From a virus, in IMG/VR virus record IMGVR_UViG_3300042731_004592, positions 1 to 25,187 of that record: DNA of 25,187 nucleotides; one strand, written 5' to 3'. Of the stretch, positions 7,972-25,137 are shown piece by piece. Each line of letters starts with the position of its first letter. Position 1 is the first letter of the stretch. The notes beneath the pieces were generated by a model. That model had not been told where the DNA came from. It did no database searches and worked only from the letters and a program-made list of their open reading frames with translations. The position numbers were made by a program, and so were the translations under genes.

Positions 7972-8766
7972 CTAACTCTCCTGTCGTTTGGCCATTGACC
8001 ATATTCGCTCTAATAGATCATGGCTAATGTTTTGGCCATATCGCGAGCGAATGAGGTCAAAAGCTTCTGCTTTTGTTAGAAATTGCTTTTTTTTCTTTTT
8101 TCGTCGCCGATTTGGCGTTGTATCGGTAACGTCAGACTCAAGGGATTCTGCCCGCAAAGGGAATCCTTCGCCTGGCGATGGACCGGGGTTGTTTATCGAC
8201 TGACCGGCCATTAAAGCTTTTTCCCATTCGCTTTCGCTGGCCGATTCAGCCGCTTGTAGGCTTTTATGTAAAAGTTCCATTCCAACGGCCGTATTAACCG
8301 GACAATTGGTAATAGCGACATTTCTAACGGTTGCTTGGGCGATAATGTTTTGCCGTGGGCCAATTCTGCGATGAATTTTACCCTCAACGGAAAAACCTAA
8401 CCGCCGATTGGTTCTCTCCAAAGCTTTTGCCAGCTTATATATTTCCTTCGCGCGATCATAGTCCTTTAGCAGATATCCCTCGACATAGGTTGCGCGTTTG
8501 CCCTTATACGTTGTTGATTTAACGAATTCTGGATACCCAACAACACCAGCTGTTTCCTTGGAGTGATTATCGTTGAACCAACCATTTTTTATAAAATCGG
8601 AAAAATCAAGGCCTGATTGTTTAATCGTATCACCCTGTCTGTCTGGGTGCTCGCTGGAAACAATACCGCCGATTCGCCACGCGCGATCGGGGTCTTCGCT
8701 AGCTTTTTCGAAAACCTCGACGGGGAATTCAACTCTAAATGGTATGCCGGTATCTGTCGGGTCCAT
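7972..8766 (-). CDS. Prohead maturation protease (264 aa)
   Basis: The N-terminal 170 residues carry the herpesvirus/HK97-type assembly-protease pattern. IGGIVSSEHPDRQGD (32-46) is the first strand and turn. WFNDNHSKETAGVVGYPE (63-80) contains the likely catalytic His68. RRLGFSVEGKI (121-131) contains the likely nucleophile Ser126, followed by IAQATVRNVAITNCPVN. The enzyme would cut scaffold and capsid arms inside the prohead. The C-terminal extension contains KALMAGQSINNP and GEGFPLRAESLE (183-210), almost the same as the capsid arm, then a Lys run (223-227) and a helical end. ATG 8766 has AGGGA close upstream. The gene follows an 82-base spacer, one of the longer gaps in the head module. 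Confidence 0.88.
   Translation of the reverse strand: MDPTDTGIPFRVEFPVEVFEKASEDPDRAWRIGGIVSSEHPDRQGDTIKQSGLDFSDFIKNGWFNDNHSKETAGVVGYPEFVKSTTYKGKRATYVEGYLLKDYDRAKEIYKLAKALERTNRRLGFSVEGKIHRRIGPRQNIIAQATVRNVAITNCPVNTAVGMELLHKSLQAAESASESEWEKALMAGQSINNPGPSPGEGFPLRAESLESDVTDTTPNRRRKKKKKQFLTKAEAFDLIRSRYGQNISHDLLERIWSMAKRQES
8059..8092 (-). other. Possible -1 frameshift site in the protease gene
   Basis: The codons AAA AAA AAG at residues 225-227 contain the slippery heptamer A-AAA-AAG in the correct phase (8086-8092). After 11 bases comes a hairpin AAAAGC-AGAA-GCTTTT (8074-8059). A -1 shift would end the protein after about ten new residues (KAISNKSRSF, then TGA), removing most of the last 37 residues. 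The hairpin is AT-rich and the Lys run alone could explain the heptamer. Confidence 0.2.
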
Positions 8767-8848: not shown

Positions 8849-9112
8849 TTACGGATTTGTTAATTTTTCGTCAAGTATTTTATTGGGCCGGGCTGGTTTT
8901 AACACGAGGCGGGGGGAAGGCGTCTCAAGCGCGCGTTTCAACTCAGGACCGATAGCTAGATCGATTAATAGATCTTTTCCGCATCGTTGACAAACAATCT
9001 CGGCCTTGCCATCTTTTCGAAATGATACAATTTTTGTACGAATGCGCAACTTGCCATCGCTTGATTTTTGCGCAACGCGATGGTTGCACGCTGGACAGCG
9101 AAGCGAGGTCAT
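8849..9112 (-). CDS. Small zinc-ribbon protein (87 aa)
   Basis: The start overlaps the helicase stop as ATGA. The protein has two Cys pairs, Cys6/Cys9 (CPAC) and Cys41/Cys44 (CQRC), separated by a basic beta-rich segment (KLRIRTKIVSFRKDGKAEIV). This is a typical zinc ribbon. The small Mu Com translational activator has a comparable zinc fold, but no direct homology is claimed. A role as a nucleic-acid-binding regulator of head genes, or a virion component travelling with the upstream helicase, is possible. After residue 50 the chain is helical and Pro-rich. The family assignment is confident at fold level only. Confidence 0.75.
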   Translation of the reverse strand: MTSLRCPACNHRVAQKSSDGKLRIRTKIVSFRKDGKAEIVCQRCGKDLLIDLAIGPELKRALETPSPRLVLKPARPNKILDEKLTNP

Positions 9113-12100
9113 AAATTAACTATCAGCCGCCGGGGTTTTTGGCTTTTTTTCAGATGCGTGCGCAACCATTCTTCACTTTTTTCTTTCTGTGCTGAATAGT
9201 GCGCCTGCTTTTCCGCCTTGGGTCGCAACTCAAAATTAACCCATCCTCCGCGAGCTTCTTTGAAACGATCGATATTCGTCACAGTGTCTCGCAAAAAATC
9301 CTCCCCAATTAAATACCCTCCGTTTCTGCGATCGTATACACCGGTAGGCCACAATGCTCCCCTGATTTTATACGTTTGGCCTGTGATTAGGTAAATAGGC
9401 TCGCCTGATGTTGAGTGACCATAAAACGTGGCTCGCAAATCGCGCCGCGCTAAATCGTCAATGGATTTCTCAATTTCACCGCGCTTTTCAGGATCCATGC
9501 TTTCGCTGCCTTTTAAATCAACATCCATTTTGTTGATTTTAAATTCTGCGGCTAATTTTTCCATCCCATCCGGCGGCACCATAAAAGTTAAAGTTTGCTT
9601 AGTTCCGTATGTTTTCCCAATGCCTCCAATAGATTTTTTGCGGATTGTTTTTTGATCTGTCTTTGAGAAATGATCCCCGTTTTCAATTTCAAACATGCCA
9701 AATCCCGAGCGCCAAACAACAGGAACACCGAAATGTTGGCGCATTTGTTCGGCGGCTCGTTTGGCCTCTCGAAATGCCTTTTTCCCTTTGTTTATTTGCG
9801 CCTGATCATAGCGCTCTTTAAGAAGGTTTCGCCCCTCTTTCACAACCATGGCAAATTCGCGAAAATAATCTCTCGCTGCCTGACTGTGCTCGGCTTCAAG
9901 ATCTTTTTTCTCCTTTTCCTTTTCTTCGTCGGCCTGCGGCACGCCAAATACCTGTTTTTCATCGCCAACCAATGATTCACCCTCGCCCATGTCATCTATC
10001 ATTTCAGAGATCTTTTTTATTTCCTCTGCCGCGTCATCTGTTACATTTTCTTGAGATGAAAAATCAAAATCCATTAAACTGGATGCCTCGACCGTGGCAT
10101 CGGGATTTCCTTGAGTATAACAACCCATGGATTTCAATTTTTTCGAAACGATCAGCGCCAATTTTTTTTCGCTCTCATCATCCCCGATTAACCAATGCAT
10201 CGTTGTATCGCTTTTAGATCCTAGCCTATGACTACGCCCGGCAACTTGGTTAAATTCCCGCCCGGAATATGGAAGGCTGAGATTAATCTGAACACGCGGG
10301 GATTCGCCCGTTGTATCATGAAGACTGATCCCGGTCCCTCCGCGAGCGATCGTGGCAACCACAACTTTTTTCTTACCCGCCTGATAGTCGGCTTGCTCTA
10401 CATGTGGTTTTTTACTTGTATTCCCGTGAATTTCAGCAACTTTATCCGGCCCGCCAAAATGATCAACGAGCGTTTGAATTGCCGATTTCCCCTTGGGCAA
10501 CTGATCAACATAATGTGCAATGTGATTAGCAAGGCCGGCAAGCTCCCTCGCTCGGGCTCGCCCCTGCGGTGTTCCGCTCATTTCAGCTTTATCTGCCCAG
10601 TTATAAAGCATCCTCGGGATAGCGCGCAAATGTTCATGATTGGCTAATTTGTAGGAGGTAAAAAACGCCACCTGTTTACCGTCGGCTAATGCTTGCTCTC
10701 CCGTTTTAATAGCTTGTTTAACCTTACAGATCTCCCAATACTGTTTCGCCCAACCGCTATAGAGCGCCTTGCAAATCCATCCTTTAACCCTCGTTTTTGC
10801 AAGATCGATAATGAACTCGGCCGTCGCAAAAGCCTGCCGTTCTTCTTCTGTCAATCCCTCTGGGTTTATTACGCCAAATTTAGAGGTAACCCCATCGAGC
10901 GAAGTAGATCGTTTGATGGATTTTCCTTCGACGTGTAACATTGCTGCGATCGCCGCTCGAGGTAAATAGCTCGATGGATTTTGAACAGTGCTGCCCTTGA
11001 CTTCAGCTCCGGCAAGCTCGGCCCATTTTAAAAAATCTTCATCGGTTTTAAAATAACCAAGCTTTCTTAAATAATGCATATCAGAAATATTTGTGTAAGG
11101 CGTGGCCGACATGTAAAGAACTTTGCTGGCTTTTTCTTGCAGTTCAACACTCGCCTTTCCAGTAAGCGTCCCTGGATTTTTCATATTATGGGATTCGTCA
11201 AAAACAACCGTATCCCAATTTCCCTGCATGATGGATTCGCGTAATTTTTTAACCGTTCTGCCCCGTTCATCTTTGGTAGGATTTCCCTCCGCATCGCGAA
11301 CAGGCTCCCATAGCTCATCGTAAGAAACGATAAAAGTCCCCTCGTCGGTGGGACTTAATTGATCATGTCGCTTAATAACCCGTTGCTTTCCTGTTGAACT
11401 AGTAACAACCTCTGCTCCCCTTACGTCTACGTTGTAAAGTCCTGCCGAGCGCTCCCCCATCCATTGAACCTTGAGCCCCTCCTTTCCTGCCGTAGGAACA
11501 ACAATTAAATTGCGCTTGCCCCCATGGGCCACGATCGCTGCCAATGCAGTGTTGGTCTTTCCTAGACCGGCGTCGTCTTGAAGGATTGCTCCTTCCCCAT
11601 CCGCCCACGCCTTTAAAATCCTCTGTGCGCCTTCGGCCTGGTGATCAAATAATCTCTCAATGTGCCCAACGACTTTCCCGTCTGACGTGGTTAGCGGCGC
11701 TGGATTTGGGAAATTTGCCACATGGCTCGGGATCGGCGGCAATTCTTCAAGTTGTGGCCATAGATCGGGAGCAAGGGCGATTGCCGGCGATTTATCTGGC
11801 TCTGGGATTGTCACTTTTCGGCCATCCGGGATCGCTCGTTCTGGTGGGGGAACAATCGGACCATCTTTGGTAATCTCCTCTATTGCGGTGGAAGGCTCTT
11901 TGGCTCGCGGCCCTTGGCTTTCCCCAGTTTTTTCAACATCCGGTCTACCACCCCCTTTTCCTCGTCCGGGAGCGCCCAATACTCCGGGATCGGGTTGACC
12001 AGGACTCGCGGCCCTTTTTTCGGTTTCGGCTCTGCCATGTGGTTTAACTCCCTTCTCGGCGATCTTTATCCATGTGCCATCGCCTTGTTTTTGATAAATG

Positions 12101-15100
12101 CCATCGGCCCACTCGCGCTTTTCTCCCACAACGGCCTTGCCGCGTTTTGCCGCCGGAGCCCCTTTGTGTCTAAGGTTTATTTTTAATCGTGGCCCCGTGA
12201 CCGGCTTTGGTGCTGGCTTTTTCTTTTCCTGCTTTAACTTCTCACGCGCCTCTATTTTTTCATCGTGAATTTCACCGGCGGCCCCGGCGAAATGACCAGC
12301 CGCATCGCGGACCCCGGCCCAGAATGGATCCTCGCCACTGTTTTTATATTTATATTGACCCATCGAGAGCATGGATCTGGCGGCCTTGTAAGCGTCGTTG
12401 ACATCAATACCGGCATCCCTGCCCTTGAATTCGTGGATTTTGTCTTCTGCCCATTTAACACCTTTTGCATATTGGCTGCCAGATCTAATCCTGGTTGGGT
12501 ATTTGTTGCTCTTTTTTGCCCGTTCAACCATGTCTTGTGTCGAAAATTCTGGCGGCTTTTGTTTTTCTTTTAACCCTTCTGCCATGCGAACTAATTCGTC
12601 CGGTTTTGGGGGAGCTTTCGGCGCGCTTTGGGCCACCTGATTGGCTTTTTCGCTGGTGGGGTCGGCGTTTTTTGAGGCCTCGTCTGGAGGCATTATGGGC
12701 ACTTGGTGATTGGCCGGGTCTTGCGCTATCGTTTCGGCCTCCGCGCTGGCCTCATTGGCCTGCTTGCTTTTGGAGGGATTGATCGCAACGAATGACGCTG
12801 CCAGGTGAACTTCTGCGGCTTTGTGGTGCGCGCTATATGCCGGTGATCCGATGGCATATTTGTTGGCCTCGCCGTAATGATAATCGGCTTTTTCGGTGTG
12901 TTGATACCCCATCATAGCCTCACGGGGTTTTGTTTTTACTGGCGCGCTTTTGGGTTTCGGTGGAGCTGTCGCAAACAAATCAAGCTGCCCTTCGATTTTT
13001 TTGGCGCGCGACCGCGCCTTTACCAGATCGATCACAAGTCTTCTTGATTTTGTCATATTGTCGGTCATGTATCTTAAAACCTTTTCTACATGCGGTTGGA
13101 TCTTCTTTCTGAACACATCCGGGTCAAAATAAGCACTTTCACCGTTTAAACGATCATATTTCCCATCATAAGTTACGTGGGTTAATGCTGGATTGATAAT
13201 GTTTTGATCGGCTAGTTTGTGATGCACATGTTGTTCGATAGCTCGCGCCAACACCTCAGTGCCGTTGGTGTAATACGCTTTTTTCATTTTTGAGTATTTT
13301 ACCTTATTCAGTTCCTCAGCAATGGAGAATAATGCATTGGGGTTTTTTTCGTCTTTTGCCTCAAGCCGTTGAAAGTGTCCGGTTTCCCCCAAAGCGCTCA
13401 TTAACGCCATGATCTCTTTGCCACCCGGGCGGCTAATAATCCCGGCTTCGATTTCGGCCAAGGTGCGCTTAGCTAACGGGTGATTCCAACCCCCATCAAC
13501 GCCCTCAAGTCTGCCTGGATCGCTTTTTTGGTGGGCCACCCAAGCGGCGGGAACACTAAAAAACTTCGACGTGCCGCCATCCCAATACAGATCGGTCATC
13601 TCTTTATGAAGTGCCTTTGCAATGCTGCCGTCGGGATCTTCTTTGTCAGTAAACGGTTTTTGTCCATAGCCAAATTTATCCAAAACCGTTTTAACAGCCC
13701 CCTCCATTTGCGACTCGCGATCATTGCCAATCCGCGTACCCATGCGATTATCTAAATAGTGGCTTAACTCGTGGGCCACTGATTTTTCAAACTTGGTGCC
13801 AATAGCAATATGCGGCGTGTGTTGAAGATCTTTTGGTTTTAAATCCTCTTTGCTTAATGCGGTGCGATCCAGATCCTTTTTGTCATGTGTCGGGGTATAA
13901 TGGGCGCTTGCTAAAATTGCTACACTATCGTCGGCGATAATTAGCGGCAAACCAGACAAATCAAGCTTGCTACCAGTGACTTTTTGAAAATCGTCAAGCG
14001 CGTTATAGACAGCGGTGATTGCGTTTTTCTTCGCCTCGTGCGATCGATTGACGGCTTCGCGTAGTTCGTTTAAGGCGATCTTCTCATCGCGAGTAACATT
14101 GGCATTAGGTTGAATTGCGGCAATGCCCCAGCCGGAGCGCTCCATTTTTACAATGCGCTTGGCACGTTTTTGATCTTCGGGCCGAACGTATTTCGGCACG
14201 TCTTTGGGATCAATGCCCCGCATCGTTGAAACGTCAATCCGGTGCTGCTCCCAATAGTTTTTCCCTTGGCTTAAAACCATCGGATCAATAAAATGATCAA
14301 AGGCGTTGTTCTCTAAAACAATATTGGTGCCGAATTTTTCGCTAAAAAGTTGTTTTACCTTGGATTGCTTTCGATCCACATCATTCCAGCGGTGATAATG
14401 CAATTGGGCTTCGATCTCGCTGTCTTTAAGATTGATCCGACTGGCTACATTAAACGGATTGCGCGATCCGTGCGGATCCTGCATCACGGTTTTCACATCG
14501 GCTTGGATGGCAACTTCTAGATCGGCGGCGGGTTTTTGGGAGGTAAATTTGGCCTGCGCCCACCCATGTTCGCGCAAGGCCTTAAAAGCTTTTTTAGCGC
14601 TTCGGTATTGCGATCCGGCTGACTCAAACCCAATAACCGACCGCGCGCTTTCAACGGCCAAGGCTTTGCCGTATCGATAATCATCGGATAATAACGTGGT
14701 CACCGCATCAACACCGCGAAAGGTTCGCACTTGACTGACCAGTTTTCTAGCAAGCTGATAGCCGGTTCGCGTTCCTTTGTCTTGCCCATAATAGTTTTCG
14801 TGCATGTCGTTTAACGCCGATGCTACAAAAATGGCGGCTTCTGGCGTTACTTCCATATATTTGGCCTCGAGCTTTAATTCTTCCAAGGCCATATCGTAAT
14901 TAACCACGGCTAAAACGTTCCCCCCCGATGTTTCCGAGTTACGCAGTTCCCAGTTAGCTTTAGGCATTTTACCGTCGGCCAATCCGTTCGCCGTTTTAAA
15001 CAACCACCATATATCGCTTACATTGGCCCGTCGCTCACCTAATAGATATTCGGCGCGTTTTTTATAAACGTTCAGCACTTCGCGGTTGCCTTCGAAATCG

Positions 15101-15813
15101 GCTGATGGATTTAAATTAAACCATGATGCGAGTTCATGGGCCACCAGTTTGGCCGACTGTTGCAGGTTTTTGGGCACGCTATCTGGCGCGTTTTCTTCGG
15201 TATATAGTTGCCTAAACGTTTTAATGAGCCCAGTAAAATCAACCAAGGCGTTTTTTACATCGCGCTGCTCGATATATTTTTGCGATGCGCCTGCTGGCAC
15301 CGTATCTAGATCGCTATATGGCAAATAGGTGTAAAAACTACCGAATAACTCTTTTATTTTTTTGGCCTGTTGCAGAACCCGCTTTTTTTGCTTTTCCGAT
15401 CCGTGCAACATAACCTCTTGAATACTGGTTAGCGTTTTTGAATATGCCTCGCCGATTTTTTTATCATGGTGCTTACGTAGCCGGCTGATCAGCTCGTTGT
15501 TCATCAGCTTTTCAATCTTGCCGGTCTCGTCGTGCTTTACCGTAACCGTATTGCCCGACACTTTAACAATCTCATAATGTCCACCCTCGATCATGAATTT
15601 TGCCCCCACGGCAAATTCACTCTTGTGACCCAACCCAGCACCACCAGTGACATTGTAATAATATTTGTATTTCGGGCTTTTCTTGCCGGTCAAAACCCGC
15701 CTAACATATTTGTGACCAGCGCCTTTAAATAACGATTTCTGCTGGAGATCCCACAAACAAACGCCTATTGCGTTTGGAATTTCTAACCAATTTTTAGCAA
15801 TGGTTAATCGCAT
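9109..15813 (-). CDS. Giant polyvalent protein: metallopeptidase-like + SNF2 helicase (2234 aa)
   Basis: ATG 15813 has GAGG just upstream and lies three bases after the MuF gene. N-terminus (about 60-100): small beta domain (VGAKFMIEGGHYEIVKVSG). Residues about 590-690 resemble the metallopeptidase-like domain of large polyvalent proteins, with HELSH (681-685) inside VAHELSHYLDNRMG. QLDLF (943-947) is a candidate sliding-clamp motif in a linker. A His-rich helical module (968-1007), a Pro/Lys-rich region and an REWADGIYQK module (1233-1251) follow. The SNF2/SF2 helicase spans about 1385-1900: GLGKT (1416-1420), DESH (1539-1542), MSATPYTN, ARGGTGISL and QVAGRSHRLG (1856-1865). The end resembles the accessory part of strawberry-notch/DarB-type phage helicases. 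Gene position and architecture suggest it is packaged and injected, perhaps to remodel restriction complexes or stalled forks. The delivery claim is inference. Confidence 0.9.
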   Translation of the reverse strand: MRLTIAKNWLEIPNAIGVCLWDLQQKSLFKGAGHKYVRRVLTGKKSPKYKYYYNVTGGAGLGHKSEFAVGAKFMIEGGHYEIVKVSGNTVTVKHDETGKIEKLMNNELISRLRKHHDKKIGEAYSKTLTSIQEVMLHGSEKQKKRVLQQAKKIKELFGSFYTYLPYSDLDTVPAGASQKYIEQRDVKNALVDFTGLIKTFRQLYTEENAPDSVPKNLQQSAKLVAHELASWFNLNPSADFEGNREVLNVYKKRAEYLLGERRANVSDIWWLFKTANGLADGKMPKANWELRNSETSGGNVLAVVNYDMALEELKLEAKYMEVTPEAAIFVASALNDMHENYYGQDKGTRTGYQLARKLVSQVRTFRGVDAVTTLLSDDYRYGKALAVESARSVIGFESAGSQYRSAKKAFKALREHGWAQAKFTSQKPAADLEVAIQADVKTVMQDPHGSRNPFNVASRINLKDSEIEAQLHYHRWNDVDRKQSKVKQLFSEKFGTNIVLENNAFDHFIDPMVLSQGKNYWEQHRIDVSTMRGIDPKDVPKYVRPEDQKRAKRIVKMERSGWGIAAIQPNANVTRDEKIALNELREAVNRSHEAKKNAITAVYNALDDFQKVTGSKLDLSGLPLIIADDSVAILASAHYTPTHDKKDLDRTALSKEDLKPKDLQHTPHIAIGTKFEKSVAHELSHYLDNRMGTRIGNDRESQMEGAVKTVLDKFGYGQKPFTDKEDPDGSIAKALHKEMTDLYWDGGTSKFFSVPAAWVAHQKSDPGRLEGVDGGWNHPLAKRTLAEIEAGIISRPGGKEIMALMSALGETGHFQRLEAKDEKNPNALFSIAEELNKVKYSKMKKAYYTNGTEVLARAIEQHVHHKLADQNIINPALTHVTYDGKYDRLNGESAYFDPDVFRKKIQPHVEKVLRYMTDNMTKSRRLVIDLVKARSRAKKIEGQLDLFATAPPKPKSAPVKTKPREAMMGYQHTEKADYHYGEANKYAIGSPAYSAHHKAAEVHLAASFVAINPSKSKQANEASAEAETIAQDPANHQVPIMPPDEASKNADPTSEKANQVAQSAPKAPPKPDELVRMAEGLKEKQKPPEFSTQDMVERAKKSNKYPTRIRSGSQYAKGVKWAEDKIHEFKGRDAGIDVNDAYKAARSMLSMGQYKYKNSGEDPFWAGVRDAAGHFAGAAGEIHDEKIEAREKLKQEKKKPAPKPVTGPRLKINLRHKGAPAAKRGKAVVGEKREWADGIYQKQGDGTWIKIAEKGVKPHGRAETEKRAASPGQPDPGVLGAPGRGKGGGRPDVEKTGESQGPRAKEPSTAIEEITKDGPIVPPPERAIPDGRKVTIPEPDKSPAIALAPDLWPQLEELPPIPSHVANFPNPAPLTTSDGKVVGHIERLFDHQAEGAQRILKAWADGEGAILQDDAGLGKTNTALAAIVAHGGKRNLIVVPTAGKEGLKVQWMGERSAGLYNVDVRGAEVVTSSTGKQRVIKRHDQLSPTDEGTFIVSYDELWEPVRDAEGNPTKDERGRTVKKLRESIMQGNWDTVVFDESHNMKNPGTLTGKASVELQEKASKVLYMSATPYTNISDMHYLRKLGYFKTDEDFLKWAELAGAEVKGSTVQNPSSYLPRAAIAAMLHVEGKSIKRSTSLDGVTSKFGVINPEGLTEEERQAFATAEFIIDLAKTRVKGWICKALYSGWAKQYWEICKVKQAIKTGEQALADGKQVAFFTSYKLANHEHLRAIPRMLYNWADKAEMSGTPQGRARARELAGLANHIAHYVDQLPKGKSAIQTLVDHFGGPDKVAEIHGNTSKKPHVEQADYQAGKKKVVVATIARGGTGISLHDTTGESPRVQINLSLPYSGREFNQVAGRSHRLGSKSDTTMHWLIGDDESEKKLALIVSKKLKSMGCYTQGNPDATVEASSLMDFDFSSQENVTDDAAEEIKKISEMIDDMGEGESLVGDEKQVFGVPQADEEKEKEKKDLEAEHSQAARDYFREFAMVVKEGRNLLKERYDQAQINKGKKAFREAKRAAEQMRQHFGVPVVWRSGFGMFEIENGDHFSKTDQKTIRKKSIGGIGKTYGTKQTLTFMVPPDGMEKLAAEFKINKMDVDLKGSESMDPEKRGEIEKSIDDLARRDLRATFYGHSTSGEPIYLITGQTYKIRGALWPTGVYDRRNGGYLIGEDFLRDTVTNIDRFKEARGGWVNFELRPKAEKQAHYSAQKEKSEEWLRTHLKKSQKPRRLIVNL

Positions 15814-15816
15814 TTT

Positions 15817-17991
15817 TTACCTCAAATCCGACGGTCGTAAGCTTCTGCGTTCTTTTTCTGCGATTGCTGCTCGCTCGTTTTTTTTATCATCGATCCATTT
15901 CCGATTTCCCTCTATGTGCCGATCGATGGTATCCGAAACAATGTCATAAGGTTTTTCTCTCGCCCATTGCCCGCCAGTTTTTTTGATCATGGCTTCCCTG
16001 AACTTATCCTTGGTGTTCTTTTTTATCTTGCGCTTGCGCCCCTTGTTTCGTTTTTCTCTGTTTTCCTTGGTTGCTGGATGCCCGGGATCGGGTTTTGCAA
16101 CAAACGGCTCCCCTCCTGGCGCTCGAGCGGAATCGCCACGGTTCCCACCGCTGCCAACAGGGCGATCAAGTCCAACAATTCCCGCCTGTCCTGGAAATGC
16201 CTTTAGCATCTTTCCTCGGTTTTTTCTCTCCTCGATTTTTTCCTTGAATTTTTCTAGCGACATGGTAGTCATGCTGCCAAAAAAACGAGGATCGTCAAAG
16301 TGTTTTAAATAGGCGCGCTTGGCCATGGTTTGGGTTAAAAAACCAAGCATGACTTTATCTTCATCGTATTTTTTGAATAGTGGAGCTTTAAGCTGGTGTA
16401 CTATATGAACATTAGGCGCGTCTGAGTGAGGACCGATGTAACAATCCACATGATCCCCGTCAACGCCCTCGGTTAATCTAATATACCCATACGGATAATG
16501 CATAAGGGTTTCGCCCTTGGTGTCCGTATGCGGATCATACCAATAACGTTTGGATCCCTTCCTGTTTTCAATACTGATCGGAAGGCCCTGAAATTCAGTG
16601 CGATAATGAAGTTTATGAGCGGATTTTCCCAAAAATTCTCCACTGGCAACTGTTGAAACGGATGAATCGATAACGGGCGCTGGGTTGTTAATTAAATCTA
16701 AAAAATCCGTTTTCTTTTCATTTTCTAAATAATCCTTTAATTGGCGCGTCTCCTCGGTTGTTCTCTTTTTTTGCGCCTCATAGGCTTCGCGATCTCCCGC
16801 CTCTCTGCTCTCTGTCCCTAATTTATGAACAAGCTCCACGGCTGCAATTAAATCCTCTGGTGAATTAAATGCCGGAGCCCATTCATACAGATCCCACGCG
16901 CCCGTTGTTATATATGCCCCGTAACTCAACTTTTCCCGGAGCTTTTCCATTGCACCAAAGCTTCGATCCCACTGTTTAACCGGTGAAGGTTTGGACTTTG
17001 TTTTTGTGTGCTTTTTTTCATCCCATGGAATTGTGTGTGCTGCATCTGCCCATTTGCCGCCTCGCGGCCCGATATAAGGCCCGTGGCCGTGAAATAATCC
17101 CAACTGGCCCGATATTGGTCTCGCCGCCTTGCGCGCTTTTTCGATCATCTCCTCTGGGACTAGATCCCAATTATCGTCAAACGCGAAACCATCAGGGACC
17201 GTTACCAGCTGGCATTGGCACCATGGATGCATAGCCCCCAGCACGGGTTTCCAATCCATTCGCTTTAATCCTACGTTTGATGTCCCCTGGCCTTCCCACC
17301 AGCTCGCCGGATGCACAATTGGTTTTCCATCTGGCCCTAGATATAACCGTTTACAATCATCACATGCTGTTTTTTCTGGGACTTTGGCCATCATTTGCTC
17401 GTGGCCATATTCCCTGATAGTTTGTTCAAAAAAACCCTGCTGGTGCGCTAAATGACTCTCTGTCGATGCAATACGATCCCAATCCCTGGCCCAGTCCTCT
17501 GACATTTGGCGCAATCGTGTTCGTAATTTGCTAACGCCTTCGCGATTGGCTAAGGTTTTTGCCGTTTCATCCCTGATCCCTTGCCGAAATTGCGAAGCAA
17601 GCTCGCTATCCAATCTCACTGCCTCTGTTGTTACCTCGCCAGAATATCGAGTACCTAACCCGACGCAAAAATCACCGGCACGGTTTTGGGCAGTCTGGAT
17701 GGCAAGCTTTTCCTCTGCCGAATGTTTTATCGGGTTCTTTTTTAGATAATCTTTAAATTGCCCCAATGTCATGTTTTTAGCATTGGGCAACTTTTCCATA
17801 AGCTGACCAAATTCAAACGAGTCTAAAACTAGGTTTTCGGCCTGATCGGGATCGAGATAACCTTCATCAATCAACCGTTGTAATTCATCATCGGATATCT
17901 CGATCCCCATAGTCGATATTGCAACAGCTTGCGAGGCGTCACGAATGATTTTTCTTATTTCTTCTAACTGCGCGGCCGTTAAAAGAGCCAT
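15817..17991 (-). CDS. MuF-like minor head protein fused to pyrophosphatase-like domain (724 aa)
   Basis: The start overlaps the previous stop as TAATG. Residues about 90-265 are the Mu gpF-like head-morphogenesis domain. It has RIASTESHLAHQQGFFE (173-189), a Cys/His site CDDC (210-213) with HP at 227-228, and HPWCQCQL (255-262). Residues 296-300 are QLGLF, the clamp-type motif, followed by a YIGPRGGKWADAAHTIPW module (306-323). Residues about 468-600 look like the 'InPase' pyrophosphatase-like domain of phage polyvalent proteins, with MHYPYGYIR, EGVDGDHVDCYIGP (508-521) and DEDKVMLGF. The C-terminus is very basic. The head domain would sit at the portal vertex; the extra domain may be carried into the cell. 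The target of the extra domain is unknown, and whether it hydrolyses pyrophosphate or nucleotides is not shown. Confidence 0.86.
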   Translation of the reverse strand: MALLTAAQLEEIRKIIRDASQAVAISTMGIEISDDELQRLIDEGYLDPDQAENLVLDSFEFGQLMEKLPNAKNMTLGQFKDYLKKNPIKHSAEEKLAIQTAQNRAGDFCVGLGTRYSGEVTTEAVRLDSELASQFRQGIRDETAKTLANREGVSKLRTRLRQMSEDWARDWDRIASTESHLAHQQGFFEQTIREYGHEQMMAKVPEKTACDDCKRLYLGPDGKPIVHPASWWEGQGTSNVGLKRMDWKPVLGAMHPWCQCQLVTVPDGFAFDDNWDLVPEEMIEKARKAARPISGQLGLFHGHGPYIGPRGGKWADAAHTIPWDEKKHTKTKSKPSPVKQWDRSFGAMEKLREKLSYGAYITTGAWDLYEWAPAFNSPEDLIAAVELVHKLGTESREAGDREAYEAQKKRTTEETRQLKDYLENEKKTDFLDLINNPAPVIDSSVSTVASGEFLGKSAHKLHYRTEFQGLPISIENRKGSKRYWYDPHTDTKGETLMHYPYGYIRLTEGVDGDHVDCYIGPHSDAPNVHIVHQLKAPLFKKYDEDKVMLGFLTQTMAKRAYLKHFDDPRFFGSMTTMSLEKFKEKIEERKNRGKMLKAFPGQAGIVGLDRPVGSGGNRGDSARAPGGEPFVAKPDPGHPATKENREKRNKGRKRKIKKNTKDKFREAMIKKTGGQWAREKPYDIVSDTIDRHIEGNRKWIDDKKNERAAIAEKERRSLRPSDLR

Positions 17992-18272
17992 TAGTGAACC
18001 TCTGCTAATATCGCATCAATTTTTTTCAACATGATCGCTTTTGCTAGTTTAACGTTTTTTCTCGAATTTATGACCGACGTTTCGAGCACTTTGTATTCAA
18101 GCTTTTTTGGCCCCTGTTTAATCTTGCTGTGAATATCAATTTTTCTAGATCTAGCCTTCATTAATATTTCAGATTCGCCGCAATGCTGATCGATTACATG
18201 CTCGATCACGCGCCGCAAATCTTCAGCCCGGGCGGGCAGATCCCCGGGCTTAATACTAACTTTAATTTTCAT
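17991..18272 (-). CDS. Conserved-looking small protein of unknown function (93 aa)
   Basis: ATG 18272 lies nine bases after the upstream stop with only a weak AGGCG in front. Its stop overlaps the MuF start (TAATG), so it is likely co-translated with the MuF protein. It is basic and mixed alpha/beta: MKIKVSIKPGDLPARAEDLR, then a helix RVIEHVIDQHC, a KIDIHSKIKQGPKKLEYKVL hairpin and a C-terminal helix VKLAKAIMLKKIDAILAEV. The family is not recognised and no catalytic residues are visible. Its place between portal and MuF genes suggests a head-assembly or portal-vertex role. Confidence 0.68.
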   Translation of the reverse strand: MKIKVSIKPGDLPARAEDLRRVIEHVIDQHCGESEILMKARSRKIDIHSKIKQGPKKLEYKVLETSVINSRKNVKLAKAIMLKKIDAILAEVH

Positions 18273-18281
18273 TTAAAACGC

Positions 18282-18674
18282 CTAGCCAGCAATATGATAG
18301 GTCAAAACGGCATCGGTATCACTCGACGCATTAGTGACCTTGATCTCGGTGAATTCTCCCTCCCACAAAAGCTTTGCCTTTGCCCCCGATGTTGGAGTCA
18401 ATTTGTAAGCGTCTGAATTCCCATTGAGCTTGATCGTAAGCTCTTGATCGGTTTCCATGTATAGAAATTTAGCCGTTGTCACGTCCCCCAGCGATAAAAC
18501 CTCGTCCGTCGTCGACGCTGGGATCGAGCGCGTCTGGCTCAATCCCTTGGTAAAATCCTGTCGAAGAGTTGTTGATTTAACCTCATCCTGACGCTCGAAT
18601 TCAATGAGCTTTTCATCGGAATCCAGCGCCGATAGGATATAAATTGTGTGCTTTACGCGAAAAACTGTGCTCAT
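18282..18674 (-). CDS. Small beta-rich virion protein next to portal (130 aa)
   Basis: The start overlaps the portal stop as ATGA. The protein is nearly all beta: FRVKHTIYILSALDSDEKLI (5-24), STTDEVLSLGDVTTAKFLYM (54-73), TDQELTIKLNGNSDAYKLTP (75-94) and TEIKVTNASSDTDAVLTYHI. The order 'L.LG....a.fl...TD....KLNG' is seen in small phage structural proteins. The family is recognised only as a virion-type beta sandwich. It may be a head decoration or neck component made in a fixed ratio to the portal through translational coupling. Confidence 0.7.
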   Translation of the reverse strand: MSTVFRVKHTIYILSALDSDEKLIEFERQDEVKSTTLRQDFTKGLSQTRSIPASTTDEVLSLGDVTTAKFLYMETDQELTIKLNGNSDAYKLTPTSGAKAKLLWEGEFTEIKVTNASSDTDAVLTYHIAG

Positions 18675-20314
18675 AGCTCGATCTCGTATTCGGTAATATG
18701 TGGTCGATCAATCCTGCGAACATGCGCCTTGCGCAAGGATTTCTCGACCTGTTGATATTGATTGCCGGCCGGCGCGGCCGATTCATCTTGCTCGGTTCCA
18801 CCCATGAAATGATCGTCAATTTCCCCGTCCATTTCATCCTCGTCGCCTTCCATGCCTTCCATGCCTCCTTGTTCTGCCATATCCTTTGCCTGCGAAAACT
18901 GAAGCCATGTTGGATCTAAGATGACCTCGCCTTTTCCGTCTGGTAGTGGTGGCAAATCTTCCTCAGCCCTGGCTTCATCAACTGTAATAAGATAGGAAAC
19001 GCGCTTTTTCTGATTGTCCGATTCGGATGCCACGTCCTTGGGATCAATGCCGGTAAAAATGATGCGAAAATCGGGATCAATTGGCCACAAAACATAATTA
19101 TGGAGCCAGCGTGCAAGCGAATTTAAAATCGGACGCAATCCGCGATCCTTGGAGTGTTTTATTCGGTTTTCGGTCCCTGATTGGAACATAGACTGACTTT
19201 GACCCGTGTTGCCAAATGTAAAATTGATTTCCGTTGGATCCATTTGATTGATAGCGCATGCAATTTTGATTAAAAAGTTCATCCATTCGGCATATTCCAT
19301 GTCCCGGTTTGACGTGTGCATGCTGACATATTGAAGATCCTCCGCATTGACAACCGGTGTTCTCCATGCGTTATTAATGCCCGTAATAAGGCTGTAAAAC
19401 TGCCGCCTAAATGCCTGCAAATGCTTTTCTGGAATAGATCCGCGAAAATTCAAAATCCCCTTTGTTACCGATCCTTGCGAGAAAAACTTTTTATTATACT
19501 GAAACCCCCACAACAGCGCGGTTAATACGTCAATGAGCATTTCGGATTCGCTGTATCCATACCCATTTGTTCTTATGTCAGTTCGAGGGTTTCTAATGCC
19601 AAAACATAGTTCATTGGCGGTGAATTCTGCGATAACGACCTCGTCGTAGATCTGAACGAATCGGGTTCTATCAGGATCCTGATCCGTGTCTGCACCAACA
19701 GGGACATCGGCAATTCTAAACGTCGCCGAGTCAACTGCGTAAAAGTTTGCCGGCAATCCACGTCGATCGGGCTCGACTTCAAAAACTGCCTGATCGTACT
19801 GGAGCGAATCCCTGACCAGCTTTCGCGTAAAAACCTCAAAATCATCTTTGCCAGGATACCACGAAACACCGGTATGCAAGATGAAATCCTCAAGATCAGT
19901 CATTCTCTTTTTCGCTGCCCTTGTCGGGCTTTTTTCCAAATCCCGCATGGCAATCCTAAATCCCGGTTCTCGATCATCATCTGGGACCTGGCAAAAATTG
20001 GCAACCTGGTTGATTCTGGTTGTGTGAATAGCTCCAAGAACGGGTACTCGTCGGACAATTTCAGCCAAACTATAATAGGTCAGAGATGATGGCCGATCCT
20101 TAAATCCTAGCTGATCGATCGTGGAAAACGGATCGTATAAAAGCGATTTTGGACCATCACCAGAAACGCTACTTTCTGTTGGCAATGCCGATGATCCCCC
20201 CTTGTATTGCTTTGTGGCTTTTTCCAAGGATTCGGACACAACGTTTGCCGTAAAACCTAATACGTCACCGGCAATCGTTGAGATCCCATCCCTTAACCGT
20301 TCGGCTAGCGACAT
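18671..20314 (-). CDS. Portal protein (547 aa)
   Basis: ATG 20314 has AAGGGG five bases upstream. The length and layout fit phage portals, which form the dodecameric DNA gate at one vertex. The N-terminus (MSLAERLRDGISTIAGDVLG) leads to the head-like region with RRVPVLGAIHTTRINQVANF and a DSLQYDQAVFEVEPDRRGLP strand. It continues with YGYSESEMLIDVLTALLWGF and IACAINQMDPTEINFTFGNT (the loop typical of portal wing/stem regions). The C-terminal tail (about 475-547) is strongly acidic, with MEGMEGDEDEMDGEIDDHF. Its position upstream of MuF, protease, scaffold and capsid confirms the call. I cannot assign the exact portal family by eye. Confidence 0.9.
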   Translation of the reverse strand: MSLAERLRDGISTIAGDVLGFTANVVSESLEKATKQYKGGSSALPTESSVSGDGPKSLLYDPFSTIDQLGFKDRPSSLTYYSLAEIVRRVPVLGAIHTTRINQVANFCQVPDDDREPGFRIAMRDLEKSPTRAAKKRMTDLEDFILHTGVSWYPGKDDFEVFTRKLVRDSLQYDQAVFEVEPDRRGLPANFYAVDSATFRIADVPVGADTDQDPDRTRFVQIYDEVVIAEFTANELCFGIRNPRTDIRTNGYGYSESEMLIDVLTALLWGFQYNKKFFSQGSVTKGILNFRGSIPEKHLQAFRRQFYSLITGINNAWRTPVVNAEDLQYVSMHTSNRDMEYAEWMNFLIKIACAINQMDPTEINFTFGNTGQSQSMFQSGTENRIKHSKDRGLRPILNSLARWLHNYVLWPIDPDFRIIFTGIDPKDVASESDNQKKRVSYLITVDEARAEEDLPPLPDGKGEVILDPTWLQFSQAKDMAEQGGMEGMEGDEDEMDGEIDDHFMGGTEQDESAAPAGNQYQQVEKSLRKAHVRRIDRPHITEYEIEL

Positions 20315-20323
20315 GTTAACCCC

Positions 20324-22732
20324 TTAGCGTTTAATCCGATCGGGATGTTCTCCGTTGTAGGCCATGTTTACATTAGCCTGGCCGTCCTGCGTCGACATTA
20401 ATTGCAACCGCCTGACATAGGGATCGCTGTCGTCGATGATCTTTGTTTCGGGTTCGGCCGATTTATATAAACCGTAATTTAACGGCAACCTTTCAGCGTG
20501 ATTGATCCGTTCGGCATCCTTCCACCACTCTGGAAGGCCACCGTTGCCATCGGTTCCCGCTTCGTCCAGGACTTGAATTTCTGCCGATAAACTGGCCCTG
20601 GCATTCTCCTCGCGGTTATCTCCTCCGGCAAGGCAAACGCTTTCGCCCTGGTAGATCACACCTTTTCGTAGGCTCGGCTTGCTAAAATGCTGCGCCGTTG
20701 TCCCGATTGCCAACCCGTCTTCCATTTCCTGTTCAATTTCCAAATCCATGCCTCCCATAACGATCGGCACAGATCCAAACATCATAATTTCTGATTTTGG
20801 CATTGATTTTTTTATCTCCTTTTTCTCTGGTGGCCAATTTTTTCCAAAACGGTTTTCTTTCCCTTCCGAAGTTGCGCGCACCGTGTTGTTATCAACACGC
20901 TCAAGCCACTTTGCGTTTATCAATGTATCCACATGCTTTTTTTGTGAATTACTGATATATCGAATATCTAAAGGATGGGATCCGCTGGCCAAGCTGATTA
21001 AGTCGCTTGCTGATTGTGGGAGCCGTTTTTTTTCTGACGTTTGTTTTTTTCTCGTCGGCTTCGCGCCCTTCGTCGCTTGCGACATCTCTTCTGCACGTTT
21101 CGACGCGCGATCTTTCATCTCATGGCCGTATCTGTGTGCGGCTTTTGCATCGCCGTGAGCCATTGCGGCTTTTTCGTGCGCCTCCCTTTTTTCACTTCCT
21201 TCTGGATGTTTATAGGCTAGTTTCCAATGGGATTGCATTTTTTTGTGGTGATACTCCACTTTGTCTTCGGTTTTAGGTTTTTTATTTTCTTTTTCCGCCG
21301 TTTCTTTTTGTTCCGCAATTTCCGACATTTTCCCCGCCCGATCGGCTGCTATTTCATAGCCCTCTTTGCCCTGTGCTGCCCTTGCTCGATCATGTGCGTC
21401 TGCTGCATGCGCATGCTTATAGGCGGCGTCACTCTGATTGGGCAATTTTTTTACCTTGTCGGCGTGGTACTGGCTGGCTGTTTGGTGCTTTCTATCCATA
21501 TCCTCGTACCAATAATCCCAACCCTTGCCCGATACGGATTTTCGCCGATAGCCGCCTTTTTTTCCTCCGGGGATCACTTGCCACCCTGCGCCAGGTGGTT
21601 TGGCTCCACCACTGGATCCCGAAGGCTCCTTTTTTTTAACTGCGCCTTTTTTGTCAAACAACCCCATTTGTTCGGATTTGGTCAACCACTCGTCAAGATC
21701 GTGGGTCACTGATTTTTCCATGGATTTTTCAACCGACGGTGGCCCGCTTTGTTCGGATACCTCGATTTTGTGTTTTTTTGCTGCGCTTTTTATTCTGCCC
21801 CAAATCTTTTTTTGTTCGGATACAGAATAAACGTTCGCGTTTTTTGGTTGACTAAAATAGCTAATAGCCGCCCTGACATTGTGCTCGGTGTGAAGAGGAT
21901 ATTTATAATTTTTAGGATCGGCGTAATCTGATCGCTCAGTGGCTCCTTCCTCGCGATATTCTTTGGGCGGGGTTTTGCTCTTGACTAACGCCTTTTCCAT
22001 TTCTTTATCCTCCTTATAAAATCCTAATGCTGTCAACGCACCTTCGGCATGATCGAATGTTGCACGTTTCGGCATCGAATGTTTTTTGCCATTGTGCTTA
22101 ATAGACCACTCTTTTCCATCCCGAACAAGTTCGGCTTTTTGGCCCTTATGCTCGATGGTATAACCTTTTTCGTGCTTAGTCCACGTTGGACCTTTTCCCG
22201 GCATTTTCCTCCCGCCTGACGGCTTAGTGATTTTTAATTTTGGCTTATCTGGCCTAGTTGTCTTTTCGCCCTCTTTTACTGGCGTCCATTTTCCTTCGGC
22301 AACTTTTTTAAATTTACCGCCGCGCCATTCACGGATCTCGCCTACTGGGACTCTGGCCTTTCTGAAATCGTCATAAGATAAAAAAGATTTTTCAATCTTT
22401 TTCAGTTTTTTGTAATAATTTTCATCTTCGGTCAAATGATCGATCGCGATCTCTTCGGCGATGGCCGGATCGGTCGTATGCTCCATTTCCTCCGCGATCC
22501 CATCGGCGAGCTGTTCGGGATCGAAGTCGGCGGCGGTTTTCCCCTGGCCTAATCCCCCGGGTATTTTTTCAGCTTTTCGCATGTTATCACATGACTTTTC
22601 CAAGCCTTTCATCTTTTTAAAAATGCCCATGATATAGGCATAATCTTTATCCTTGCCAGCGTTTTTGGCCAAGCCTTTGGCCTTTTCCCATAAATGCTCG
22701 TCGCGTTCGGTTTTTACCACATTTGCCGGCAT
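20324..22732 (-). CDS. Modular polyvalent-type protein with small phage domains (802 aa)
   Basis: ATG 22732 is chosen over GTG 22741 because AAGGAG lies eight bases upstream of the ATG and abuts the GTG. Modules in order: WEKAKGLAKNAGKDKDYAYI (15-34), a helical piece common in phage proteins; DUF5661-like EQLADGIAEEMEHTTDPAIA (73-92); REWRGGKFKKVAEGKWTPV (134-152); a beta domain (182-240); DUF6582-like YADPKNYKYP to GRIKSAAKKHKIEV (270-325); QMGLF (355-359), a clamp-type motif; GAGWQVIPGGKKGGYRR to GWDYWY (381-409); two His-rich helical hairpins (417-456, 493-540); a winged-helix-like segment (570-630); and a C-terminal domain of unknown type. There is no enzyme motif. It is probably packaged in or attached to the head, like its enzyme-bearing neighbours. 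The domain calls rest on recalled patterns. Confidence 0.8.
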   Translation of the reverse strand: MPANVVKTERDEHLWEKAKGLAKNAGKDKDYAYIMGIFKKMKGLEKSCDNMRKAEKIPGGLGQGKTAADFDPEQLADGIAEEMEHTTDPAIAEEIAIDHLTEDENYYKKLKKIEKSFLSYDDFRKARVPVGEIREWRGGKFKKVAEGKWTPVKEGEKTTRPDKPKLKITKPSGGRKMPGKGPTWTKHEKGYTIEHKGQKAELVRDGKEWSIKHNGKKHSMPKRATFDHAEGALTALGFYKEDKEMEKALVKSKTPPKEYREEGATERSDYADPKNYKYPLHTEHNVRAAISYFSQPKNANVYSVSEQKKIWGRIKSAAKKHKIEVSEQSGPPSVEKSMEKSVTHDLDEWLTKSEQMGLFDKKGAVKKKEPSGSSGGAKPPGAGWQVIPGGKKGGYRRKSVSGKGWDYWYEDMDRKHQTASQYHADKVKKLPNQSDAAYKHAHAADAHDRARAAQGKEGYEIAADRAGKMSEIAEQKETAEKENKKPKTEDKVEYHHKKMQSHWKLAYKHPEGSEKREAHEKAAMAHGDAKAAHRYGHEMKDRASKRAEEMSQATKGAKPTRKKQTSEKKRLPQSASDLISLASGSHPLDIRYISNSQKKHVDTLINAKWLERVDNNTVRATSEGKENRFGKNWPPEKKEIKKSMPKSEIMMFGSVPIVMGGMDLEIEQEMEDGLAIGTTAQHFSKPSLRKGVIYQGESVCLAGGDNREENARASLSAEIQVLDEAGTDGNGGLPEWWKDAERINHAERLPLNYGLYKSAEPETKIIDDSDPYVRRLQLMSTQDGQANVNMAYNGEHPDRIKR

Positions 22733-22737
22733 ATTGA

Positions 22738-25137
22738 TCACTCCTTTTCGAGGATATATAGCTTACTGTTGACCTGTGTCCCCTCTTTTTTGAAGGATTT
22801 ATCGTTTAAGGATTGTTCGTGTGTAACTAAATGTTTAAACGGCGCAATTAGTTTATCACCGCTTGGCCCCGCCGGTAAAATAAGAGCGGCTTTCCCTTTT
22901 CCTGTCCAGTGTTGATTGACGGCCTTTTCTATAATTTTTGCCGTTTCTGTTACATGCTCAACGCCTTTTGTTGTAAACGGCGGGTTCATTAATAGAACAT
23001 CTGCCCTGGAAATCGACGGATCAACCTGAAGAAAATTTGCTTGGCGGACGGTTTGATCGCCCCTGTTCGCAAACTCCTTGAGCTTGGGATCGATTTCAAA
23101 TCCCAGTGCCGATACCGCGCCCTGCTCGAGCGCATATTTTAACAAACGGCCCTCGCCGGCTGTTGGATCCAGTACGGTTTTGCCTTTAACGTCGGCTAAT
23201 TCTGCCATCTGATAGGCTACTGGATGCGGTGTGTTGAATTGCCCTAATCTGCGCTGATATTCCGTCAGCTTGGGCGCTGGTTTTGCCTGTTGCATCCGTT
23301 CAAGCTCGGCCATTCTCGCCGCGCCGGTTTTTTTAACGTCACCAACACCTGGCGCTTCGCCGGGTAACTCCTCGCCAAATTTTTTCAGCGCGCGCTCAAT
23401 TTTATCTAGCTTGCCCCTGCCCTGCCTGCGCTTACCGGTATCGGGATCATAGCCCCATTCTGATAGTAGCCGCCTCGACGTTTCGTATCCCCGCCGTTTT
23501 ATGCTGCCTAGCCGATCGGGGTCTGCCACCCCCAATACCTGATCAATTCGATACTGCGCCTCTCCGATAATCCGTTTGTACTGGGTTTTCAGTCGCTCGA
23601 TCTGCTGTTGCCGCGCCTCTTCATTGCGCTGTTTTAGCGCGGCCTCTTGCGCCTCGCTGGGTTTAATCTCGGCGGCAACCCTGCGCTGTTTGGCTAGCTT
23701 CAATAGCTCCTTCGCCGCCTCACCATCCTCGAAGGACATAACCGGCTGCCCTCGCACTTTTGTTAGAATTGCCCCTTTCAGCGTATCATAGCCGCTAAAA
23801 TGTAATAACACACCCTGCTCGTCGCCCTGCGGCTCGACCACATAAACCGGACGGCTGTGATATGTTGAGGTTTTCCATTTATTCCACGCGCCGCTGCGGT
23901 TCGTTGTGCGGGTTTCTATGCGCCAACCGTGCCCGGGTTTGTAATTCACCTTCACTTGGAGCTTTCCGCGATCGCCAAATCGACTAATCGGATAATCCGG
24001 GATCGTGTATTCATCAACGATCCGTCGATTTTTTAGATGTTCATATAGCTGTGCTGCGTCGGGATTGTTTTTAACAACGTCGGGGGTCTCGCCGCGCGGA
24101 AGTTCATCAAGGGATTGATCCGCCCTTACCTCTGCGCGCTCGGCCTCCGCTCGTTTTTCCTTAATCTCCTTTCGTTTTGAAGCGTGCGCGGCCGATGCCT
24201 TGCTTCTTAAATAATCATTAATATGGACAATAGCCCGACGGAAATTCGCCCGTGGACTATCGCTGCCGAAGCTGTGCTCATTTCCAACGTCGGCATCTGG
24301 CGGCAACTTTGAGACCTGGACCAATACGTCATACAACGCATTTTTCATCTTTTCGGCCTTTGGCCCCTTGATCCCCTTTTTGGAATAGATTTTTATCAGC
24401 TCGTCATATTCCTCTTTTACCTCTTTAAAAAACGGGTGCTCTCCTGCGCCAAGCTCCGCTTGCGCCACCTGTTTTTTTTCTGGCTTAACATATGGCTCGG
24501 GCTTTTCCGATTCATGAGCATATCCCCAGCTCACCCGCTCACCAACGCTAAACGTTGCTCTTACCATTTGACCGTTGTCGCCAAGGGTCACCTTTATGGG
24601 CTTGCGCGCCCCTTTGTATCTAACCTGATAAACGCCGTGCCCCTCGTCTTTTAAAACCTGATAGACATAATTTTCACCCTTTGGCCTGCGTTTAAGCGAA
24701 TCATATTGAGGAACCTGAAACCAATCACCAACTTTTAGCCCCTCCCAAAATTCCCGAGATGATTTTGGCTCTGGTTTGGCCTCTGGCTCTGGTTTGTCCT
24801 CGTGGTGTGGGGTCTGTGTAACTCCCTTTTCAGGATACCAATATTCCCAGCCATGGCCTTTACGTCGTCGATATCCGCCCCTTTTTCCGCCCGGGATTAT
24901 TTGCCATCCTGCGCCTGGTGGGGTTGGTTTTGTTTTAGTGGGGACAACTAGTTTTTTTGTTTTTTCTCCCGCCGGTTTGCGTGGTCCAAATAGCCCCAAT
25001 TGCTCGGCTTTTTGTAGATCGTCGGCTGATAAAACATTCATCAAAGATTTGCTAAACTGATCGTTATTTTTCAACTCAATAATCAGCCGATCCATTGCCG
25101 CGTTAACACGTTTTCGCTCTTCACTATCTGGCGGCAT
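22738..25137 (-). CDS. Polyvalent protein with N6-adenine methyltransferase domain (799 aa)
   Basis: Residues 46-50 are QLGLF, a sliding-clamp-type motif. GAGWQIIPGGKRGGYRRR to GWEYWYP (76-102) is a module shared with the next protein. A beta domain (about 128-215, VGDWFQVPQYDSLKRRP) and long charged helical regions follow. The C-terminal 160 residues are a Rossmann DNA methyltransferase: LDPTAGEG (motif I, 656-663) binds S-adenosylmethionine and NPPF (718-721) is the catalytic motif of N6-adenine enzymes. Target specificity is not readable. The stop lies just before the next ATG. ATG 25137 has only a weak GGGA upstream and the frame stays open for 16 codons to the edge, so the true N-terminus may lie outside. 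A virion-delivered antirestriction role is inferred by analogy with P1 DarB. Confidence 0.84.
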   Translation of the reverse strand: MPPDSEERKRVNAAMDRLIIELKNNDQFSKSLMNVLSADDLQKAEQLGLFGPRKPAGEKTKKLVVPTKTKPTPPGAGWQIIPGGKRGGYRRRKGHGWEYWYPEKGVTQTPHHEDKPEPEAKPEPKSSREFWEGLKVGDWFQVPQYDSLKRRPKGENYVYQVLKDEGHGVYQVRYKGARKPIKVTLGDNGQMVRATFSVGERVSWGYAHESEKPEPYVKPEKKQVAQAELGAGEHPFFKEVKEEYDELIKIYSKKGIKGPKAEKMKNALYDVLVQVSKLPPDADVGNEHSFGSDSPRANFRRAIVHINDYLRSKASAAHASKRKEIKEKRAEAERAEVRADQSLDELPRGETPDVVKNNPDAAQLYEHLKNRRIVDEYTIPDYPISRFGDRGKLQVKVNYKPGHGWRIETRTTNRSGAWNKWKTSTYHSRPVYVVEPQGDEQGVLLHFSGYDTLKGAILTKVRGQPVMSFEDGEAAKELLKLAKQRRVAAEIKPSEAQEAALKQRNEEARQQQIERLKTQYKRIIGEAQYRIDQVLGVADPDRLGSIKRRGYETSRRLLSEWGYDPDTGKRRQGRGKLDKIERALKKFGEELPGEAPGVGDVKKTGAARMAELERMQQAKPAPKLTEYQRRLGQFNTPHPVAYQMAELADVKGKTVLDPTAGEGRLLKYALEQGAVSALGFEIDPKLKEFANRGDQTVRQANFLQVDPSISRADVLLMNPPFTTKGVEHVTETAKIIEKAVNQHWTGKGKAALILPAGPSGDKLIAPFKHLVTHEQSLNDKSFKKEGTQVNSKLYILEKE

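Follow-up and report, generated by a model that had tools for sequence, protein, structure and literature searches.

Pentapeptides matching the bacterial beta-clamp-binding motif recur in linkers of polyvalent proteins encoded in phage head operons

The clamp-binding motif of bacteria is given in a 2024 review as Q-aliphatic-x-[L/M]-[F/L], with QLxLF and QLDLF as the strongest forms, and in Hda such a motif works from the N-terminus of the protein (PMC11139829). Among phage proteins, the closest studied protein of the type described here is DarB of phage P1, which is incorporated into the virion and believed to reach the cell interior; its first 30 residues are enough to target it to the capsid (PMC9024508). 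Here we describe Q[LM]xLF pentapeptides in four large proteins of a phage head operon, the recurrence of these pentapeptides in related viral contigs, and a second short signal that often precedes them.

The DNA analyzed (the window) is an entire virus record of 25,187 bases (IMG/VR IMGVR_UViG_3300042731_004592), a 25 kb fragment; the phage replication genes are outside it. The genes discussed are all on the minus strand and are transcribed in the order methylase (P0001), modular protein (P0002), portal, two small genes, MuF-like/pyrophosphatase protein (P0003), helicase (P0004), one small gene, head protease, scaffold and major head protein. The main features are as follows.

22738-25137, minus strand: P0001, 799 aa, N6-adenine methylase-like polyvalent protein (Pfam N6_Mtase weak, slightly under the curated cut-off; PHROG DNA methyltransferase)
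20324-22741, minus strand: P0002, 805 aa, modular protein (Pfam DUF6582 and DUF5661)
18671-20314, minus strand: portal protein (Pfam Phage_portal; PHROG portal)
15817-17991, minus strand: P0003, 724 aa, apparently MuF-like N-terminal region and inorganic pyrophosphatase domain (Pfam InPase, 3e-33)
9109-15813, minus strand: P0004, 2234 aa, HELSH zincin-like motif, LPD1 and SNF2/strawberry-notch helicase
7972-8766, minus strand: head maturation protease (PHROG 1028, 1.5e-40), with six hydrophobic-x-K-[A/S] sites
7008-7970, minus strand: head scaffolding protein (PHROG 15087), with eight hydrophobic-x-K-[A/S] sites
5501-6937, minus strand: major head protein (PHROG 752, 8.8e-92), with LKKALAAGQDIN near its N-terminus

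P0004 matches the Pfam families SNF2-rel_dom, AAA_34 and Helicase_C_4, with LPD1 slightly under the cut-off. The N-terminal region of P0003, 58-62% identical to portal-adjacent homologues, has no Pfam match and is assigned as MuF-like from its sequence. No domain known to act on DNA is evident among the Pfam matches of P0002 and P0003. The large proteins have several unrelated domains each and their genes adjoin virion genes, as expected of polyvalent proteins. The arrangement is not DarB-like, in that the methylase (P0001) and the helicase (P0004) are separate proteins and not one fusion.

A first-pass annotation of this DNA had placed one pentapeptide in each of the four large proteins, and all four positions proved exact, on the minus strand.

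24988-25002, minus strand: QLGLF in P0001, residues 46-50, codons CAATTGGGGCTATTT
21656-21670, minus strand: QMGLF in P0002, residues 358-362 from the GTG start, codons CAAATGGGGTTGTTT
17092-17106, minus strand: QLGLF in P0003, residues 296-300, codons CAGTTGGGATTATTT
12973-12987, minus strand: QLDLF in P0004, residues 943-947, upstream of the helicase domain, codons CAGCTTGATTTGTTT

The motif-spanning peptides of the window are AEQLGLFGPRKP, SEQMGLFDKKG, ISGQLGLFHGHG and EGQLDLFATAPP. Three of the residue ranges given previously also agree; QMGLF is at 358-362 if translation begins at the GTG at 22741, and at the earlier 355-359 if it begins at an ATG three codons on. No Q[LM]xLF was found in the other plausible genes of the window, and the sole further match, QLLLF at 1074-1088, falls in a reading frame interrupted by stop codons. 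From amino acid composition, 0.030 occurrences were expected in the four proteins and four were observed (Poisson P ~3e-8). Permuted patterns occurred 0-1 times each in the same proteins, with the exception of the overlapping form QL.[LM]F. A DNA repeat was rejected as the origin of the four copies: they are encoded by different codons, so the peptide and not the DNA is the repeated item. The first-pass annotation had argued from four independent placements. The departure from chance holds, but because P0001 and P0002 have the same module after the motif, PPGAGWQ[IV]IPGGK[RK]GGYRR, only three placements are independent.

We looked for the pentapeptide in proteins of related phages without using it in their selection. 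Polyvalent proteins were collected from IMG/VR contigs by means of three module patterns, one of them a DNA pattern matching the GPRGGKW mini-module. The corresponding modules of the window are listed here.

24829-24921, minus strand: mini-module of P0001, PPGAGWQIIPGGKRGGYRRRKGHGWEYWYPE, common to P0002, L194 and L195
21503-21598, minus strand: mini-module of P0002, PPGAGWQVIPGGKKGGYRRKSVSGKGWDYWYE, homologous to the P0001 module
17023-17082, minus strand: mini-module of P0003, GPYIGPRGGKWADAAHTIPW, the same module as found in many viral contigs

There were 29 Q[LM]xLF matches in 172 module-bearing ORFs (177,871 aa, window included), compared to 1.25 expected and a mean of 1.07 (maximum 5) for permuted patterns in the same ORFs. 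With the window excluded, 25 matches in 17 distinct contexts remained, compared to a mean of 0.96 distinct contexts (maximum 4) for the permuted controls. Chance was rejected on the basis of the permuted controls, the counts without the window and the distinct contexts. When over-represented gapped motifs were sought with no prior assumption of QLxLF, QL.LF, Q.GLF and Q.SLF ranked close to the top. Enrichment elsewhere was weaker, with four matches in other long ORFs (0.79 expected) and seven in short ORFs (2.48 expected). A few matches are in folded regions; in L024 and L098, for example, QMNLF is part of the helicase core. Q[LM]xLF is a real, recurrent linear motif. Other searches returned little: short tblastn queries against phages and a search for P0004 relatives in viral contigs found few sequences, and the module pattern was found in only two MAGs among genome contigs. 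The mini-module itself (GPYIGPRGGKWADxxHTIPW) is present in up to several copies per contig in polyvalent proteins, nearly always directly downstream of a K-[A/S/G] site.

The residues preferred at each position of the motif were determined by varying one position with the others fixed. Position 1 was clearly enriched only for Q and position 5 only for F; position 2 was L or M, position 3 mainly G, S, D or N, and position 4 L with some M and I. These preferences agree position by position with the published consensus (PMC11139829), as the first-pass annotation had supposed in likening the pentapeptides to the beta-clamp motif; those of the window fit Q-aliphatic-x-[L/M]-[F/L], of which QLxLF is the best form. 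The first-pass annotation had also named QLGLF as the clamp motif of E. coli Pol II, and the C-terminal end of Pol II is indeed QLGLF (residues 779-783).

The motifs appear to be in accessible, flexible linkers; a position in linkers had been claimed in the first-pass annotation. K and P are nearly twice as frequent in the motif flanks as at random positions of the same proteins. AlphaFold models cover P0001 and P0003; both are weak overall and show only that the motif region has no confident fold. The P0003 motif is in coil (pLDDT ~29) within a segment, residues 286-348, of pLDDT <50, and the P0001 motif is at a helix end entering coil of pLDDT <50.

Conservation of the motif above the surrounding linker, a check proposed with the original claim, gave a mixed result. 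QLxLF is kept in five homologues (L030, L047, L076, L090 and L110) in which position 3 is S, N or K and the linker varies. L123 keeps QMGLF after sequence matching P0002, and the homologue in L002 has no motif at that place; the motif is therefore gained and lost between homologues. In L194, a P0001 head with KAEQLDLFGP and the module is on a neighboring gene, apart from the methylase body, an arrangement indicating that motif and module move together. The same contig has an in-frame stop midway through an otherwise intact P0001-like methylase reading frame (L194:7935-10049). A related linker motif, Q[LMIT]xFx[FW], was found eight times (1.36 expected) in L002, L003, L062, L074, L099 and L123. 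Its forms (QIGFDF, QLRFDF, QMSFDF and QLGFGW) are in linkers of several homologues and perhaps represent an alternative clamp tag.

Upstream of all four motifs of the window there is a second signal, hydrophobic-x-K-[A/S], which the first-pass annotation did not include.

25006-25017, minus strand: LQKA in P0001, putative head-protease site two residues before Q
21674-21685, minus strand: LTKS in P0002, putative head-protease site two residues before Q
17134-17145, minus strand: IEKA in P0003, putative head-protease site upstream of QLGLF
13015-13026, minus strand: LVKA in P0004, putative head-protease site upstream of QLDLF

The signal is probably a recognition site for the head protease, judging from its distribution. 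It is present six times in the protease (control count 0.25), eight times in the scaffold (2.0), 13 times in P0002 (1.75) and twice in the major head protein (1.5), and the N-terminal segment LKKALAAGQDIN of the major head protein resembles the protease segment WEKALMAGQSIN. In module proteins, DL.K[AS] was found 67 times (10.2 expected), and DL.E[AS] and DL.R[AS] were found at about the expected numbers. A K-[A/S/G] site is located at most 12 residues upstream in 89 of 106 GPRGGKW modules and within 12 residues downstream in none of the 106. For QLxLF, 18 of the 29 motifs have a K site at most 20 residues upstream (random mean 4.2), and in 10 it is exactly two residues away. The composite K-[A/S/G]-x-Q..LF had 18 matches, and at most four when Q or K was swapped for any other residue tried, indicating that both K and Q are specifically required in the composite. 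In phage HK97, the capsid protein is cleaved after a lysine.

The composite is also present in two groups of cultivated phages, which makes its proposed role directly testable. In Bordetella phage PHB04, it is at the N-terminus of a DarB-like methylase-helicase, MIILLTKAQLALFDTP (LLTKAQLALF). The DarB-like proteins of Thermus phages Lalka8, 27a and 27b have the N-terminal composite MDLVRLYQELLAKAEQPALF (LLAKAEQPALF), followed by two QPTLWEA repeats. In these phages (L209, L212 and L211, respectively), QPALF and the two repeats are in a P/K-rich linker and may form a series of clamp tags. P1 DarB contains no Q..[LMI]F, and the clamp-type motif is likewise missing from the other giant proteins sampled from named phages, with the exception of PHB04 and Lalka. 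The possibility that the motif is a general trait of giant phage proteins was rejected, as the large proteins of 14 named-phage regions had no general enrichment.

Bacterial hosts encode DnaN, and some relatives of the phage appear to encode a clamp of their own. The Pfam DnaN cut-off was passed by none of 46 related viral records. A profile built from two weak hits detected a clamp-like protein in four of the 46, both founders included. These divergent DnaN-like proteins (in L176 and L179, and at L202:18009-19019 and L204:10770-11909) are all below the Pfam cut-off. Using phmmer against the PDB, the founders, L176 and L179, matched only beta clamps, and the L202 candidate, which rests on the profile search, had no match. 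Three of the four clamp-encoding contigs carry Q[LM]xLF in polyvalent proteins; most of the long motif-bearing contigs, which are possibly incomplete, have no visible clamp gene. Phage polymerases sharing the motif were sought in the clamp-encoding relatives and not found: the family-A polymerases of three of them are without a clear motif, and no DnaE was detected in the related records. Because clamp genes are in few relatives and the family-A polymerases of three of these lack a clear motif, host DnaN appears to be the likelier partner. Two family-A DNA polymerases, at L200:5137-8016 and L202:4601-7432, have Hint and intein-splicing matches, one with an HNH domain, and appear to be interrupted by inteins.

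We think it reasonably probable that the pentapeptides are functional beta-clamp-binding motifs, situated in flexible linkers of head-operon polyvalent proteins that are delivered with the virion and dock on DnaN. Injection of these proteins is plausible, because their genes surround the portal and MuF genes and because P1 DarB is believed to follow such a route. The precursors would enter the prohead, as suggested by gene position and by P1 DarB. The head protease would then cut after K in [hydrophobic]-x-K-[A/S], so that the resulting methylase, helicase, pyrophosphatase and modular fragments would each carry the motif 2-10 residues from a new N-terminus. These fragments would enter the cell together with the DNA, and QLxLF would dock in the hydrophobic pocket of host DnaN, or of the phage clamp where relatives encode one. 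The enzymes would be concentrated on replicating phage DNA, perhaps in competition with host clamp users. More tentatively, the two signals could constitute an address code, in which head maturation at the capsid-processing site hydrophobic-x-K|[A/S] exposes the clamp tag and the enzymes are thereby sent to the host or phage clamp.

Several findings count against the clamp reading, including the presence of the motif in proteins with no DNA-acting domain (P0002 and P0003), its loss in L002, its absence from P1 DarB, and the lack of a clear copy in the family-A polymerases of three clamp-encoding relatives. In addition, the downstream flanks are K-rich, whereas those of known clamp motifs are mostly acidic (PMC11139829). 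The close spacing of QLxLF to the K-[A/S] site, and the abundance of that site in the protease and scaffold, would fit a single encapsidation tag, hydrophobic-x-K-[A/S]-x-QLxLF, that serves in head targeting or protease recognition and involves no clamp. It would resemble capsid targeting in T4 and P1: the capsid targeting sequence of P1 DarB is N-terminal (PMC9024508), and the internal proteins of T4 have such sequences that are cleaved (PMC5694885). We consider such a tag unlikely, because K-[A/S] is far commoner than QLxLF and also occurs without it (as at the 89 of 106 GPRGGKW modules), 11 of the 29 motifs have no K-[A/S] site within 20 residues, and QLxLF is missing from the portal, protease, scaffold and major head protein. 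Moreover, the residues favored in the motif match those of a clamp motif described previously.

Other explanations accept an interaction with the clamp and differ in its purpose or its partner. The virion-delivered peptides might be decoys that occupy DnaN and inhibit host replication or repair instead of recruiting enzymes, much as the bacterial toxin SocB blocks replication via its clamp motif (PMC9690074). The presence of the motif on the pyrophosphatase and modular proteins, for which no DNA substrate is evident, would fit a decoy, but the methylase and helicase proteins of the window and the DarB-like methylase-helicases of cultivated phages bear it too, and we regard a decoy as quite improbable. 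We see only a slight chance that the partner is a phage clamp made after infection, or another phage protein, rather than the host clamp: four related contigs do encode clamp-like proteins, three of them together with motif-bearing polyvalent proteins, but the polymerases and the clamp-less long contigs described above argue otherwise. Finally, the shared module of P0001 and P0002, and the joint movement of motif and module, could reflect inheritance of one duplicated linker. That explanation, like coincidence, is scarcely credible given the 17 distinct contexts beyond the window, the different codons, and retention of the motif while the linker varies.

If the clamp-binding reading is correct, then the enzymes that some phages deliver at infection carry an address for the replication machinery from the start. 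Part of the explanation of how virion proteins with antirestriction or DNA-modifying functions act on the incoming genome could lie here, and such cargo could be recognized in uncultured phages by a simple test of sequence. Term searches of a library of open-access papers returned no earlier description of clamp motifs in phage proteins of the polyvalent or DarB-like type.

The proteins described here share features with several known systems. In T4 and SPN3US, the prohead protease cuts capsid targeting propeptides off packaged proteins, and propeptides are likewise lost from the capsid protein, the scaffold and the protease (PMC5694885); the SPN3US sites are A-x-E-like, whereas the site proposed here from sequence is hydrophobic-x-K-[A/S]. 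In the Dar antirestriction system, P1 DarB is also a large protein, a methylase-helicase that is packaged and has its capsid targeting sequence at the N-terminus (PMC9024508), but it is without the Q..[LMI]F motif. The phage polyvalent proteins described by Iyer et al. (2017) are also multidomain and encoded beside virion genes, and include MuF fusions, methylase-helicases, LPD1 and zincin-like peptidases; clamps, DnaN, linkers and linear motifs are absent from the main text of that work (PMC5512222). Compared to the bacterial beta-clamp motif, the motif described here is a candidate clamp tag on phage head-operon proteins and adjoins a putative head-protease site. It nevertheless has the same pentapeptide and residue preferences as the motifs of Pol II (QLGLF), Pol V (QLNLF), the Hda N-terminus, IS transposases and SocB and, like them, is in a region that appears disordered.
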